Below, piece by piece: positions 1-7,844 of a stretch of 10,555 nucleotides of DNA. This stretch comes from Treponema sp. GTDB lineage: Bacteria; Spirochaetota; Spirochaetia; Treponematales; Breznakiellaceae. The notes under the pieces are model-generated. The model did no database searches, had not been told where the DNA came from, and saw only the letters and a program-made list of their open reading frames with translations. Both the position numbers and the translations under genes were made by a program. The stretch is from NCBI GenBank assembly GCA_031256115.1, contig JAIRRF010000187.1, positions 1 through 10,555 on the forward strand, in the 5' to 3' direction. Position 1 is the stretch's first letter, and each line of letters opens with the position of its first letter.

Positions 1-20
1 AAATGTAATCTTTGATTCGG

Positions 21-48
21 ACGCCCCCGATTTTCGGGGGCGTTTTTT
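21..48 (+). terminator. Strong intrinsic terminator-like hairpin before gene 1
   Basis: A perfect 10-bp GC-rich stem (ACGCCCCCGA at 21-30, TCGGGGGCGT at 34-43) with a TTT loop is followed by an unbroken T run to 48, the classic form of a Rho-independent terminator. It either ends a gene lying left of the window or sits in the leader of the next gene. Only 2 nt separate the T run from the AGGAGA ribosome binding site (51-56) of the gene at 62, so no promoter fits between them. Confidence 0.9.
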
Positions 49-61
49 ATAGGAGAAAATT

Positions 62-1054
62 GTGGCAACAGAGTTGGCAAACCTTGAAATTCTTTCCAAC
101 AAGATAAATTTTAATTCCGCTGTCCGGCATATTAAAAGAACCATTAGCATTATGGAAGATGCAGAGGGAAATAAAAATCTGGCGGACCTCCTTTATCAGA
201 TAGAAGACGAGGAAATGGACGGGAACCGTTCCGCCTTGGTGTTGAATATCCTTTTGGTAGACAAAATGGGGTATAAGACCGTTTCGGCTAATTTAAAATC
301 AGTTGTAGAAAATTTATCTTCATTAGCCGCTGAATTTGCAAAATGGAAAGGCATTGACTTAATAGCGGCGTATCATCATCCTGAACTGGGACTTTTGGTT
401 GCAAATCCAAAAATACCGGAGGAGCTTTCGGCTTTCGGCTCATTAAAAAAAAGAGAACTCCTTGTGGTTTACGCAGGTAAAGGAAATGCCCCGGCGGATG
501 ATGATTGTACGAAAGCTGCAGAGCTGGCAATACATCTTTTTGAAGGTACAAAAATAAAAGCTCCCGTTTCTTTTTTAAAGGGTAGTTTTCCGGTAAAACA
601 TATAAAAGAAAAAGCTGTTTCCAAAGGCTCTAAAACAGCTGCCAAAAAACCAAAACCGGGGAAAGCAAAGACAGCCGCCCGTAATATTCACAGCGATGTT
701 AGTGCGGCTGCTCCGGCCGGACAGGTAAAAATGACACCCCGCTATGCTGTGGTTGTACAGAACGAATTTTTCCACAATGGAAATGTTGAAGCCTGGAAGC
801 GAATTATTGCCAGTTATAATGCTGCATATCCAAATCTTCAGGTATATATTTATTACGAAGGTGAACGGATCCAGAATATTAACGCCCTTTTTAAATGGGG
901 AAAGGTAAAACACGGCAGCGCCATTGAATTTGCGGTAGCAGGCAGCAATATAAAGGGCGTAGCCAAACTACAGCGTTATCTGGCACAGGGGGCAAGTCAT
1001 CTATTCGAGGCTTTTCTTCATGGCCCGGTAAGCAGCATACTTAAACTCTTTTGA
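62..1054 (+). CDS. Uncharacterised protein with divergent HPr-like C-terminal domain
   Basis: I do not recognise the 330-aa protein as a whole. The GTG start is supported by AGGAGA at 51-56, 5 nt upstream. It has no signal peptide or membrane segment, so it is probably cytoplasmic. Three parts are visible: an alpha/beta N-terminal region (about 1-180), a Lys/Ala/Pro-rich basic linker (about 184-222) and a compact C-terminal domain (about 226-313). In the last, the predicted order strand (RYAVVVQ), helix (VEAWKRIIASYNAAY), two strands (LQVYIYYEGERI), short helix (NALFKWGKVKHG), strand (AIEFAVAG), helix (VAKLQRYL) matches the PTS phosphocarrier HPr. His238 falls where HPr has His15 at the start of helix 1, but the Arg-Pro that follows in HPr (LHxRPA) is replaced by Gly-Asn. 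The stop overlaps the upstream edge of the PPDK-like gene, so the two are surely cotranscribed. HPr-like fold is inference; phosphocarrier function is not proven. Confidence 0.8.
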   Translation: MATELANLEILSNKINFNSAVRHIKRTISIMEDAEGNKNLADLLYQIEDEEMDGNRSALVLNILLVDKMGYKTVSANLKSVVENLSSLAAEFAKWKGIDLIAAYHHPELGLLVANPKIPEELSAFGSLKKRELLVVYAGKGNAPADDDCTKAAELAIHLFEGTKIKAPVSFLKGSFPVKHIKEKAVSKGSKTAAKKPKPGKAKTAARNIHSDVSAAAPAGQVKMTPRYAVVVQNEFFHNGNVEAWKRIIASYNAAYPNLQVYIYYEGERIQNINALFKWGKVKHGSAIEFAVAGSNIKGVAKLQRYLAQGASHLFEAFLHGPVSSILKLF

Positions 1055-1065
1055 TTAAGGACCAT

Positions 1066-3753
1066 ATGGATACAAGAATACACTTTTTCAGCCAGAGGGA
1101 TGTTATAAAAAATGTTTCTCCCGAATTTCTGGGAATCAGAGGCCGTCAAGCTAACGAATTTGCTGAGCTTAAATTTCCCATTCTTCCGGGTTTTATTATT
1201 GACAGTACTTTGGCTTCAAAGATTGATCCGGGAACAATAAAAAAGGATTTTCTGACGGCGCTGGGAAGAATCAGCGCTTTTACCGGTAAACACTTCGGAG
1301 ATCCGGACAATCCAATGCTGCTTAAGGTAGTTATTTCTTCCAACCTGGCGATTACGAATTATCCGGTCCTTCATAATCTGGGTTTGACAAAACCTGTCAT
1401 AAAAGGGTTTAGTAACTGGGTTGGCAGGGACTTTGCCGTCCGGGAAGTGCTTTTTTTGATCCGAGGGGTGCTAAAAATTGAAGAACGGATCAAAGAACTC
1501 GAAGCTGATATTAAACTGCAAAAAGAAATAAGCGATCAGCTAGCAATGTTGGACCAGGTTTTGTGTATCCGGGGGCCTTCCAACGAACCTGGCAATGAAG
1601 GAAAAAAGCCCGTACCACTTAACAAAAACGCTGAATTTTACATGGATTTTTATGCCGGTTTTTTCCAAAAAGGTTTTTTTGAAAACGCAGAAGAGCAGAT
1701 ACTAATATGTTTGGGTGAAATTTCTTCAATGTTCCGGATGGATAATCAAAACGACAACGATACGGCCTTGATGATTTCCCCTATGGTATACGGAAACTAC
1801 GGAAAAGATTCCTGTTCGGGGGCATACTTTAGCCGTAATGTGGTTACCGGAGAAAAAATTCTTCAGGGCAGTTTCTCCCGGCAGAAAATTAATGAAAGCG
1901 GTTCTTCCGGTCAATCCATAGAAAAGATAGCACCTGTCCACTATAAAGAGCTTAAACGTATTGCATGGACGCTGGAAGACAAGTTTAAGGAAATCCGTCA
2001 AATCCTGTTTACCGTAGAAAACGGAAAGCTATGGCTATTGGAACAGCGTCTGGTTGACAAGAAATCCGCCCAGGCGGACTTAAAACTTCTTTTGGATTTG
2101 GCCAGACGGAAGGTCATCGGTAATGCGGAGTTAATAAAATCCATTGAACCATTACGGCTTAACGAGATCCTTCATCCGGTGATTGATTCCCTTAGCGTAA
2201 AGGGCCTGAAATATTGGAAAGGCGGCATAGCCGGCGCTCCCGGAGCGGCCATAGGCAGGGCCTATTTTAGTACAGGCGCTTTGCTGGAAGCGCATAGGGC
2301 TGCCCGGCAAAAAGGAGAAGACACACGATTTATCCTGATATTGGAATCCTCCTTTGCTGAGGATGTTAAAGCTATTGAACTTAGCACCGGGGTCCTTACC
2401 GCAGAAGGGGGTTATTCGGCACATGCTTCGGTTGTAGCCCGTCAATACGGCAAAGCTTCTCTGGTAGCCCCGGAGATGAAATTTAAAAGAAAAACCGCCG
2501 TATTGGGAGATTTAAGAATTAATGAGGGGGATTATTTAACTCTGCAGGTTCCTTTTTACGGTGAGTGTAATGTTTACCTTGGTACGGCTAAATTGATTGA
2601 GCCTGACCCCAAGAAATCAGGTCTGTTGGACTTTATTGGAATTGCCAAAGGTTTCCTTAACAATTTCCATGTCCGCTGTAATGCCGATACATCAAGGGAT
2701 GCGGCTCTGGCATTAAACTTTGGCGCCGACGGAGTTGGGGTATGCCGGACAGAACATATGTTTTTTCAGGAAGACCGGATTAATATTTTCCGGGAAATGC
2801 TTTTTTTGCCGGATCCAAAAGACCGGGCCGGGGCACTGGCAAAGCTCCAGGTTATGCAAATGAAAGATTTTTACGGGCTCTTTAAAGTTATGGCCGGAAA
2901 GGAAGTGACCATACGGCTTTTGGATTCACCTCTCTATGAATTTATGCCCCATAACGACGAAGAAATGAAAAGCTTTATTTACCACATGCAAAAGATTAAG
3001 GGGAAAAAGATATCCAGGGCGGAGCTTATCGCCGGTGTGGAAGCCCTGCATGAATTTAACCCCATGTTAGGTCACAGGGGCTGCCGTATTGCCGTCTCAT
3101 TCCCGGAAATATATATAATGCAGGTAAAAGCGATCTTTGAAGCAGCTTATAAGCTGTGTTCTGAAAAAATTGATGTCCAACCGGAGATCATGGTTCCTGT
3201 CATTATGAACGCTTCGGAACTAAAACTTATTGCCTTTGGCAAGAAGATCGAAGGAAAAAGTTATACCGGTATTGTAGATATTGAAGAAGAAATAAGAAAG
3301 AAAAAAAAGGCAAAACCGCTGGAATATCAGATTGGAACGATGATAGAACTTCCTGCCGCCGCCCTGGGAGCGGGAGAAATTGCCAAGTACAGCCGGTTTT
3401 TCAGTTTTGGAACCAACGACCTGACCCAAACTACCTTGGGCATTTCCCGGGATGACTTTACTGCCTTTATCTCCGATTACACCCTCTTCGACTTGATTAT
3501 TGGGAACCCCTTTAGTACCCTGGATCCCCGGGTTAAAGAACTAATATCCCTGGCTGTCGAACGGGGACGTCTTACCAGGCCCGATCTGGTCTGCGGTCTC
3601 TGCGGTGAACACGGCGCCAACCCTATTAATGTACGTTTCTGTATGGATGCGGGACTTAACTATGTATCCTGCTCGCCCTATTCTGTGCCTATCGCATTGT
3701 TGGCGGCGGCCCAGGCGGAACTGGAAAAGGCAGAAACAAGACAAAAAGCCTAA
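1066..3753 (+). CDS. PPDK-family PEP-utilising phosphotransferase with degenerate ATP-grasp domain
   Basis: This homologue of pyruvate phosphate dikinase has 895 aa, close to the family's 870-890. I chose ATG 1066 because AAGGA (1057-1061) lies 4 nt upstream; an in-frame TTG at 1051, overlapping the previous stop, has no such site. Residues 1-335 align with the PPDK ATP-grasp domain (LPGF near 40, GNYGKDSCSG near 243, FTVENGKL near 315), but catalytic positions are lost: by hand alignment to Clostridium symbiosum PPDK, Lys22 is Arg25, Arg92 is Ile, Asp321 is Gln, Glu323 is Leu, the AQGEDVVAG stretch is missing, and a charged helical stretch (about 133-166) replaces normal sequence. The swivelling domain keeps His453 in EGGYSAHASVVAR. 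The C-terminal barrel is intact: Arg561 (CRTEHMFF), Arg617 (TIRLLD), Glu761 (MIELP), Asn784-Asp785 (GTNDLTQ), Cys846 (GLCGEHG). It should accept phosphate from PEP on His453 but probably cannot pass it to AMP/ATP, which resembles PTS Enzyme I. Automatic annotation would call it ppdK. Confidence 0.9.
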   Translation: MDTRIHFFSQRDVIKNVSPEFLGIRGRQANEFAELKFPILPGFIIDSTLASKIDPGTIKKDFLTALGRISAFTGKHFGDPDNPMLLKVVISSNLAITNYPVLHNLGLTKPVIKGFSNWVGRDFAVREVLFLIRGVLKIEERIKELEADIKLQKEISDQLAMLDQVLCIRGPSNEPGNEGKKPVPLNKNAEFYMDFYAGFFQKGFFENAEEQILICLGEISSMFRMDNQNDNDTALMISPMVYGNYGKDSCSGAYFSRNVVTGEKILQGSFSRQKINESGSSGQSIEKIAPVHYKELKRIAWTLEDKFKEIRQILFTVENGKLWLLEQRLVDKKSAQADLKLLLDLARRKVIGNAELIKSIEPLRLNEILHPVIDSLSVKGLKYWKGGIAGAPGAAIGRAYFSTGALLEAHRAARQKGEDTRFILILESSFAEDVKAIELSTGVLTAEGGYSAHASVVARQYGKASLVAPEMKFKRKTAVLGDLRINEGDYLTLQVPFYGECNVYLGTAKLIEPDPKKSGLLDFIGIAKGFLNNFHVRCNADTSRDAALALNFGADGVGVCRTEHMFFQEDRINIFREMLFLPDPKDRAGALAKLQVMQMKDFYGLFKVMAGKEVTIRLLDSPLYEFMPHNDEEMKSFIYHMQKIKGKKISRAELIAGVEALHEFNPMLGHRGCRIAVSFPEIYIMQVKAIFEAAYKLCSEKIDVQPEIMVPVIMNASELKLIAFGKKIEGKSYTGIVDIEEEIRKKKKAKPLEYQIGTMIELPAAALGAGEIAKYSRFFSFGTNDLTQTTLGISRDDFTAFISDYTLFDLIIGNPFSTLDPRVKELISLAVERGRLTRPDLVCGLCGEHGANPINVRFCMDAGLNYVSCSPYSVPIALLAAAQAELEKAETRQKA

Positions 3754-7478: not shown

Positions 7479-7844
7479 ATGACGGATGTTCACAACGATG
7501 CGATGGAACTTGAGGATTTTGATACGGTTTTATCGCCGGATATTGAATTTTCCGGCACCCTGCGTTTTGAAAAACCTTTTTTGGTGCAAGGTAAAGTTTC
7601 CGGAGAGATTAACGGTTCCAGTCTATTAATGGTAGCCGAAGATGCAGTTGTGACTGCAAATATCAGGGCATCAAAGGTGATTATCCTGGGAACAGTCAAG
7701 GGAAATGTCAATGCCGAATCCAGAGTGGAAGTGGCTCTAACCGGAAGATTAACCGGAAACATAACTGCCCCGGAGATTAACATGGAAGCAGGGTGTTTTT
7801 TTTCGGGCCGCTGCATCATGATCGAAAAAAAATATTCCGAGTAA
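7479..7844 (+). CDS. Bactofilin (polymer-forming cytoskeletal protein)
   Basis: Bactofilins (DUF583/CcmA family) self-assemble without nucleotide into filaments or patches that position cell-wall or envelope enzymes. This 121-aa protein has the family layout: a short polar N-terminal tail (1-18), then a right-handed beta-helix core of short repeats with hydrophobic residues every other position and turns at Gly/Asn (FSGTLRFEKPFLVQGKVSGE near 24, AVVTANIRASKVIILGTVKG near 56, RVEVALTGRLTGNITAPEIN near 82), ending in MEAGCFFSGRC and a short charged tail. No membrane segment is present. The start is ATG 7479 with only a weak GGGA 2 nt upstream; ATG 7503 is possible but has no better site. It heads a unit with a secreted TPR gene 3 nt downstream and mtaB after that. 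The bactofilin-TPR pairing suggests cell-shape or envelope work, which is inference. Confidence 0.93.
   Translation: MTDVHNDAMELEDFDTVLSPDIEFSGTLRFEKPFLVQGKVSGEINGSSLLMVAEDAVVTANIRASKVIILGTVKGNVNAESRVEVALTGRLTGNITAPEINMEAGCFFSGRCIMIEKKYSE

Follow-up and report, generated by a model that had tools for sequence, protein, structure and literature searches.

A pyruvate phosphate dikinase derivative and a double HPr-like protein as a candidate phosphotransfer pair associated with cfpA in spirochaetes

Two adjacent genes at the start of a Treponema contig (JAIRRF010000187.1, assembly GCA_031256115.1; the 10,555 nucleotides analysed are called the window below) raise the question of whether a homologue of pyruvate phosphate dikinase (PPDK) that apparently cannot use ATP hands phosphate from phosphoenolpyruvate (PEP) to an HPr-like partner and, if so, to what end. 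Gene A encodes the HPr-like protein and gene B the PPDK derivative; the initial annotation had called the open reading frames (ORFs) at 62-1054 and 1051-3753 on the forward strand, where we also find them, and had proposed a relay resembling the phosphotransferase system (PTS) with a regulatory output. We lean, with modest confidence, towards the view that A and B are a PEP-driven phosphotransfer pair belonging to the spirochaetal CfpA filament system, in which the phosphorylation state of A would report PEP/pyruvate to the CfpA ribbon. This view builds on the computed loss of the ATP site and retention of the PEP and histidine sites in B, the predicted HPr folds and invariant histidine of A, the gene order, and a three-way co-occurrence with cfpA.

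In Pfam scans, B matched PF02896 (1.3e-65) and PF00391 (3.5e-7), with no match to PF01326 (PPDK_N) at E <= 1. It scored 626.5 bits against NCBIfam TIGR01828 (the PPDK equivalog), under the cut-off of 843.45 bits, and its alignment to C. symbiosum PPDK covered residues 231-892 well and the N-terminal domain weakly (11.9 bits). The residues that we take to serve the ATP site of PPDK are K22, R92 and E323, and a K22A mutant of the enzyme is named in a PDB title. These positions were read across 236 aligned homologues of B (117 from a protein search, 74 from named genomes and 45 from a phylum-wide set, the three sets being overlapping and non-independent); 3 of 120 proteins (<=800 aa) were left out of the alignment, as were 6 of the 80 named loci (retained from 210 relatives) and 15 of the 60 phylum-wide loci, which had no usable long B ORF. 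The K22 position was R in 236/236 homologues, the R92 position was V or I in 236/236, and the E323 position was never E, while for Q335 and R337 two alignments disagreed. His455 and the PEP site (R561, R617, E745, N768 and C831 in PPDK numbering) were kept in the same homologues, apart from a single X (E745) and a single gap (C831); R561 was read at the GLCRTEH row, the alignment row labelled R561 and holding T, C or A being a misplaced motif. In families f47 and f49, eight far homologues out of eight likewise had the ATP-site residues replaced and the PEP and histidine residues kept. Residue 317 of the window protein, at the E323 position, is Leu, unlike the 190 remaining near and named homologues, which have Arg there.

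In a tree of 55 sequences, B formed one clade apart from 16 spirochaete PPDKs (ultrafast bootstrap, UFBoot, 100; FastTree 0.82). The structure model of B was poor (pLDDT 67, 32 rows) and served solely as confirmation of the PPDK fold. The source genome (a treponeme metagenome-assembled genome, MAG, 72% complete, whose closest relatives with names are MAGs of Treponema and Spirochaetaceae bearing isolate names that point to the termite gut) additionally encodes a canonical PPDK, a pyruvate kinase, Enzyme I and two HPr, and B is therefore an extra protein. It is very probable that B has lost the use of ATP and retained PEP chemistry, and both this reading and the placing of its phosphohistidine at His453 (895-aa numbering) agree with the initial annotation.

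A natural variant occurs in genus g39, where the three genomes seen with A (G038, which is a single contig, G072 and G101) carry after it a gene for 586, 547 and 552 aa, respectively, that starts past the ATP-grasp domain, retains the His and PEP domains, and is about the size of Enzyme I. These short proteins nest within the B clade beside that of locus L145 (UFBoot 100); thus the loss of the domain is secondary, and A and B of this genus must function without one. Outside g39 the pseudo ATP-grasp domain has 15 invariant columns across 31 diverse sequences, so it is probably of use in the lineages that keep it, perhaps for docking or sensing.

A search with A yielded 3026 homologues at E <= 1e-3; because a single-sequence search undercounts (79 of 145 family genomes), profiles were used afterwards. 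Two HPr folds were predicted in A, and the first 27 of 50 rows of the fold comparison were HPr, Crh or NPr, so that the earlier proposal of an HPr-like C-terminal domain holds for the predicted structure. Residue 85 of the first domain, at the His15 position, was P, L, I or T in most of 120 relatives. His238, already singled out as the candidate phosphocarrier, was present in 84 of 84 sequences of alignment A2 and is the sole invariant His of A, while position 275, matched by eye to Ser46, was S in 52, A in 20 and T in 12 of the 84. In the window this residue is Ala, and Ser was found in 113 of the 120 relatives listed.

A had no Pfam match to the HPr family PF00381, a profile search of PDB sequences returned no HPr among its matches, and profile comparison with 32 spirochaete HPr sequences (hhalign) was not significant. 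A first hhalign run gave the C-terminal domain a probability of 0.64 (E 0.089), with 3 of 40 column shuffles scoring above, and the N-terminal part E 0.02 with no shuffle control; a second gave the first domain 10.6 (E 0.003 over 20 columns) and the second domain 0.7 (E 0.077). That the local alignments keep to the HPr register is no more than suggestive. The HPr match of A rests on predicted structure; the profile and sequence searches missed HPr. The best PDB-profile match of the second domain was an RxLR effector (E 1.5e-4), aligned over 45 columns on either side of a Trp common to both, which we judged to be chance. We consider it probable that A is a phosphate acceptor. One homologue of A, P0325, is labelled as coming from an Ignavibacteria MAG, owing either to gene transfer into another phylum or to mistaken binning.

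As the initial annotation led one to expect, the two genes are neighbours elsewhere: B lay directly after A in all 80 named loci and in 48 of the 60 phylum-wide loci, and this order, together with the number of A homologues, indicates that the pair is not a chance arrangement. The 12 exceptions were ten loci of family f49 (nine with B about 5-7 kb off on the same strand, one with B on another contig) and two of f47 (B on other contigs). In the f49 loci L248, L249 and L250, A and B are separated by about four conserved genes, whose products are a protein of 239 aa, a lipoprotein that by eye begins like a vWA domain, a protein of 671-874 aa that matched no family, and a GAF-GGDEF protein. The median gap between A and B was 12 nt (n = 124), and the distances of A and B were correlated with r = 0.94 (44 genomes).

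The gene upstream of A is cfpA. In the three loci scanned, its product scored 1227, 885 and 720 bits against NF040882, for which the cut-off is 500. A same-strand cfpA no more than 1.5 kb upstream of A was present in 75 of the 75 named loci that could be judged (5 of the 80 could not) and in 55 of the 60 phylum-wide loci (130/135), at a median gap of 83.5 nt (n = 130); CfpA was not found in the examined flank of A in the other five phylum-wide loci. The source genome holds a cfpA fragment cut by the end of contig C222, and the window, from which cfpA is absent, opens where the end of that gene is expected. Genome G028 has two full-length CfpA genes (C1:845038 and C1:2843508), one only beside A. 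In G038, cfpA lies at C1:2249885-2251651, about 160 kb from A; of the complete f1 genomes listed this one has the lowest cfpA score, and its matched stretch contains a single in-frame stop. A vWA-type gene adjoins cfpA in distant spirochaetes (L163, 1746-2852, Pfam VWA; L148, 8715-9386, and L149, 10406-11068, both by eye), and those of L148 and L149 are, we presume, similar to TP0750.

Among 392 genomes surveyed, A was found in 135, B-type proteins in 133 and CfpA in 137; 129 had all three and 252 had neither A nor CfpA. The B-type threshold (E <= 1e-30) was chosen after seeing a gap between 7.7e-31 and 4.1e-28. CfpA was present in 132 of the 135 A genomes (exceptions G328, G348 and G444), and A was missing from 5 of the 137 CfpA genomes (G258, G266, G343, G351 and G362). 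Three genomes had A without B-type (G038, G188 and G354), of which G038 and G188 nevertheless have an adjacent B, and G343 alone had B-type without A. Fisher tests on this co-occurrence, with relatedness ignored, gave 2e-100 and 6e-94. The co-occurrence persisted where the genes are unlinked (f47, G038 and G476), and HPr, found in 374 of the 392 genomes, was far wider than A/B. A functional association of A and B with CfpA is, in our judgment, likely.

The literature offers some points of contact. In Treponema denticola, cfpA (TDE0842), the conserved hypothetical gene TDE0843 and the putative PPDK gene TDE0844 were jointly repressed in co-incubation with other oral bacteria, with fold values given for P. 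gingivalis and T. forsythia and cfpA marked only '-' for S. gordonii (PMC3914990). From the gene order we infer that TDE0843 is A and TDE0844 is B. In the envelope fraction, TDE0844 and CfpA each rank as a major protein (PMC3931704), although their joint presence there may reflect co-pelleting, and a cfpA mutant showed filamentation, chromosome condensation and reduced attachment (PMC3398590). The available text of these three papers does not draw the connection between A/B and CfpA proposed here, and literature searches among open-licence papers turned up no enzymatic or signalling partner of CfpA.

In the mechanism that we propose, B, descended from PPDK, would take phosphate from PEP onto His453 and release pyruvate, and its ATP-grasp domain would no longer exchange that phosphate with ATP, AMP or Pi. 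The swivelling domain would instead pass it to His238 of A, the first, His-less domain of which may serve docking. A and B would act on the CfpA ribbon or be anchored to it. If phosphate takes this path and CfpA is either the target or a scaffold, the ribbon would learn of the PEP/pyruvate state through the phosphorylation of A, with a change in its assembly, its anchoring or its role in division. That the relay controls the filament is a more tentative proposal, falling a little short of an even chance: a dedicated PEP phosphorelay, made of a PPDK turned second Enzyme I and a two-domain HPr carrier, would gate the intermediate-filament-like CfpA ribbon, so that assembly and division read PEP/pyruvate. 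In this reading, too, A and B may be the pieces that bridge or anchor the ribbon. Because of the cfpA link, the regulatory output foreseen by the initial annotation stands in a changed form, its likely object moving from generic PTS-like regulation to the cytoskeleton. That annotation had missed this link, as well as the second, His-less HPr-like domain of A and the g39 variant without an ATP-grasp domain.

The strongest argument for a B that still forms ATP is the missing pyruvate kinase of a genome resembling that of T. pallidum (G200, locus L148; complete, 1,139,633 bp), in which neither pyruvate kinase nor PPDK_N was matched and the PEP-to-pyruvate step may thus be unusual. Its B (901 aa) and CfpA (678 aa) have the lengths printed for TP0746 and TP0748 (PMC3373638), and TP0746 has been treated as a glycolytic enzyme (PMC10013896, PMC8525777), assigned the reaction of PEP, AMP and PPi and called most likely ATP-forming (PMC10013896). 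B might accordingly still work as a PPDK and form ATP at an atypical ATP site, with A as an accessory or regulatory subunit and the cfpA link as only an old operon, all the more as K22 to R is a conservative change. We think this improbable, since the R92 and E323 equivalents are lost in every aligned homologue, g39 dropped the whole ATP-grasp domain yet kept the pair, A/B presence tracks CfpA, and nine of ten genomes checked, all but G200, have PPDK_N and pyruvate kinase elsewhere. G200 itself has a GTP-type PEP carboxykinase and oxaloacetate decarboxylase beta as a possible bypass. Judged by its residues, TP0746 is predicted to be no dikinase; PEP would then reach pyruvate another way, for example through PEP carboxykinase and oxaloacetate decarboxylase.

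The same gene order and co-occurrence would also suit a structural role, in which A and B themselves may be bridging or anchoring pieces of the CfpA ribbon that no longer pass phosphate; a 2004 work by Izard, going by its title, is said to deal with such components. The prominence of B beside CfpA in the envelope fraction (PMC3931704) is a further point for it. A purely structural role is nevertheless unlikely, because it would not need His453, the PEP-site residues and His238, which are kept throughout. A relay with a target other than the filament, sharing operon and lineage with cfpA for other reasons, is about equally unlikely; direct interaction of A/B with CfpA is not known and relatedness inflates the co-occurrence, which nonetheless holds where the genes are unlinked. 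Still less probable is an A fed by, or feeding, the ordinary PTS, with B as a side branch. HPr is nearly everywhere in the phylum and the source genome has the PTS proteins named above, but B has its own PEP site, A/B presence follows CfpA and not the far wider HPr, and five A genomes lacked an HPr match (G198, G249, G253, G345 and G354; four have B-type, and only G249 is >90% complete).

If the PEP-driven pair is real, PPDK would have given rise to a pair resembling Enzyme I and HPr, and a metabolic phosphorelay would be connected to a bacterial cytoskeleton, which to our knowledge is not known from elsewhere. A hypothetical gene and a misnamed gene of treponemes would gain a testable function, and the pair would offer a handle on the role of cytoplasmic filaments.

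The features of the locus are collected in Table 1. The window opens with the hairpin and its T run, followed by A and then B. The 4-nt overlap of A and B described initially requires TTG 1051 as the start of B and is probably not real: homologues begin at the position of ATG 1066, with the consensus MDxRIHFF, so B probably has 895 aa and starts 11 nt past the A stop. The RNA fold of 16-52 has -22.0 kcal/mol, and comparable hairpins lie between cfpA and A in loci L068, L070 and L073; the hairpin reads as the terminator of cfpA, which some transcripts may run through into A and B, and it may hold these two at a low level relative to abundant CfpA. The other window genes scanned encode a 194-aa protein without Pfam match, a TPR protein, Pta, a bactofilin, a second TPR protein and a MiaB-like radical SAM protein; in the scan of the eight larger ORFs no permease came to light, in keeping with the initial annotation. 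The gene for bactofilin, another cytoskeletal protein, lies at 7479-7844, about 3.7 kb downstream of B and beside the TPR genes.

Table 1. Features of the A/B locus in window coordinates
Feature	Position	Strand	Basis
G+C-rich hairpin with T run after, directly 5' of the A ribosome-binding site	19..45	+	RNA fold
Gene A, tandem HPr-like protein, 330 aa, GTG start	62..1054	+	ORF; predicted structure; Pfam PF27497.1 in precomputed annotation
A residues 71-164, first HPr-fold domain, without His at the His15 position	272..553	+	
A residues 225-316, second HPr-fold domain, strand-helix-strand-strand-helix-strand-helix	734..1009	+	
His238 codon of A, candidate phospho-acceptor, directly before helix 239-255	773..775	+	alignment; predicted structure
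Gene B, PPDK-derived, 895 aa from ATG 1066 (900 aa if TTG 1051)	1066..3753	+	Pfam/NCBIfam matches; homologue starts
B residues 1-383 (approximate), pseudo ATP-grasp domain; K22 to R25, R92 to V, E323 to L	1066..2214	+	alignments
B residues 384-510 (approximate), swivelling phosphohistidine domain	2215..2595	+	PF00391; alignment to PPDK
His453 codon of B, equivalent to PPDK His455	2422..2424	+	alignments
B residues 511-895, PEP-binding barrel with R561, R617, E761, N784 and C846	2596..3750	+	PF02896; residues kept

Set beside known systems, B differs from PPDK (TIGR01828; 1DIK, 1KBL) in its lost ATP-site residues, its score under the cut-off, its pairing with A and cfpA, and the absence of the ATP-grasp domain in g39. 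For a PPDK that became a regulator, the closest precedent found is VadK of mycobacteria, a PPDK-derived regulatory phosphohistidine protein that keeps the ATP-grasp domain and the His and autophosphorylates from ATP (PMC13400623), whereas B keeps the His and the PEP domain, the opposite half; the terms HPr, spirochete/spirochaete and Treponema were absent from that paper in a term search. With Enzyme I of the PTS, B shares the PEP-binding and phosphohistidine domains and, in g39, the approximate size, but by sequence it falls on the PPDK side; it had no Pfam match to the N-terminal HPr-binding domain of Enzyme I at E <= 1 and reached 94.7 of 341.7 bits against TIGR01417, on the C-terminal part. 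A shares with HPr, Crh and NPr the predicted fold and, in its second domain, a His directly before the first helix, and differs from them in having two domains per chain, the first without the His, no Arg-Pro after the His and no detected sequence similarity. To the CfpA filaments of treponemes the pair is joined by cfpA, its upstream and co-occurring gene. The best reading is that A and B work like Enzyme I and HPr, yet by the tests made belong to neither family.

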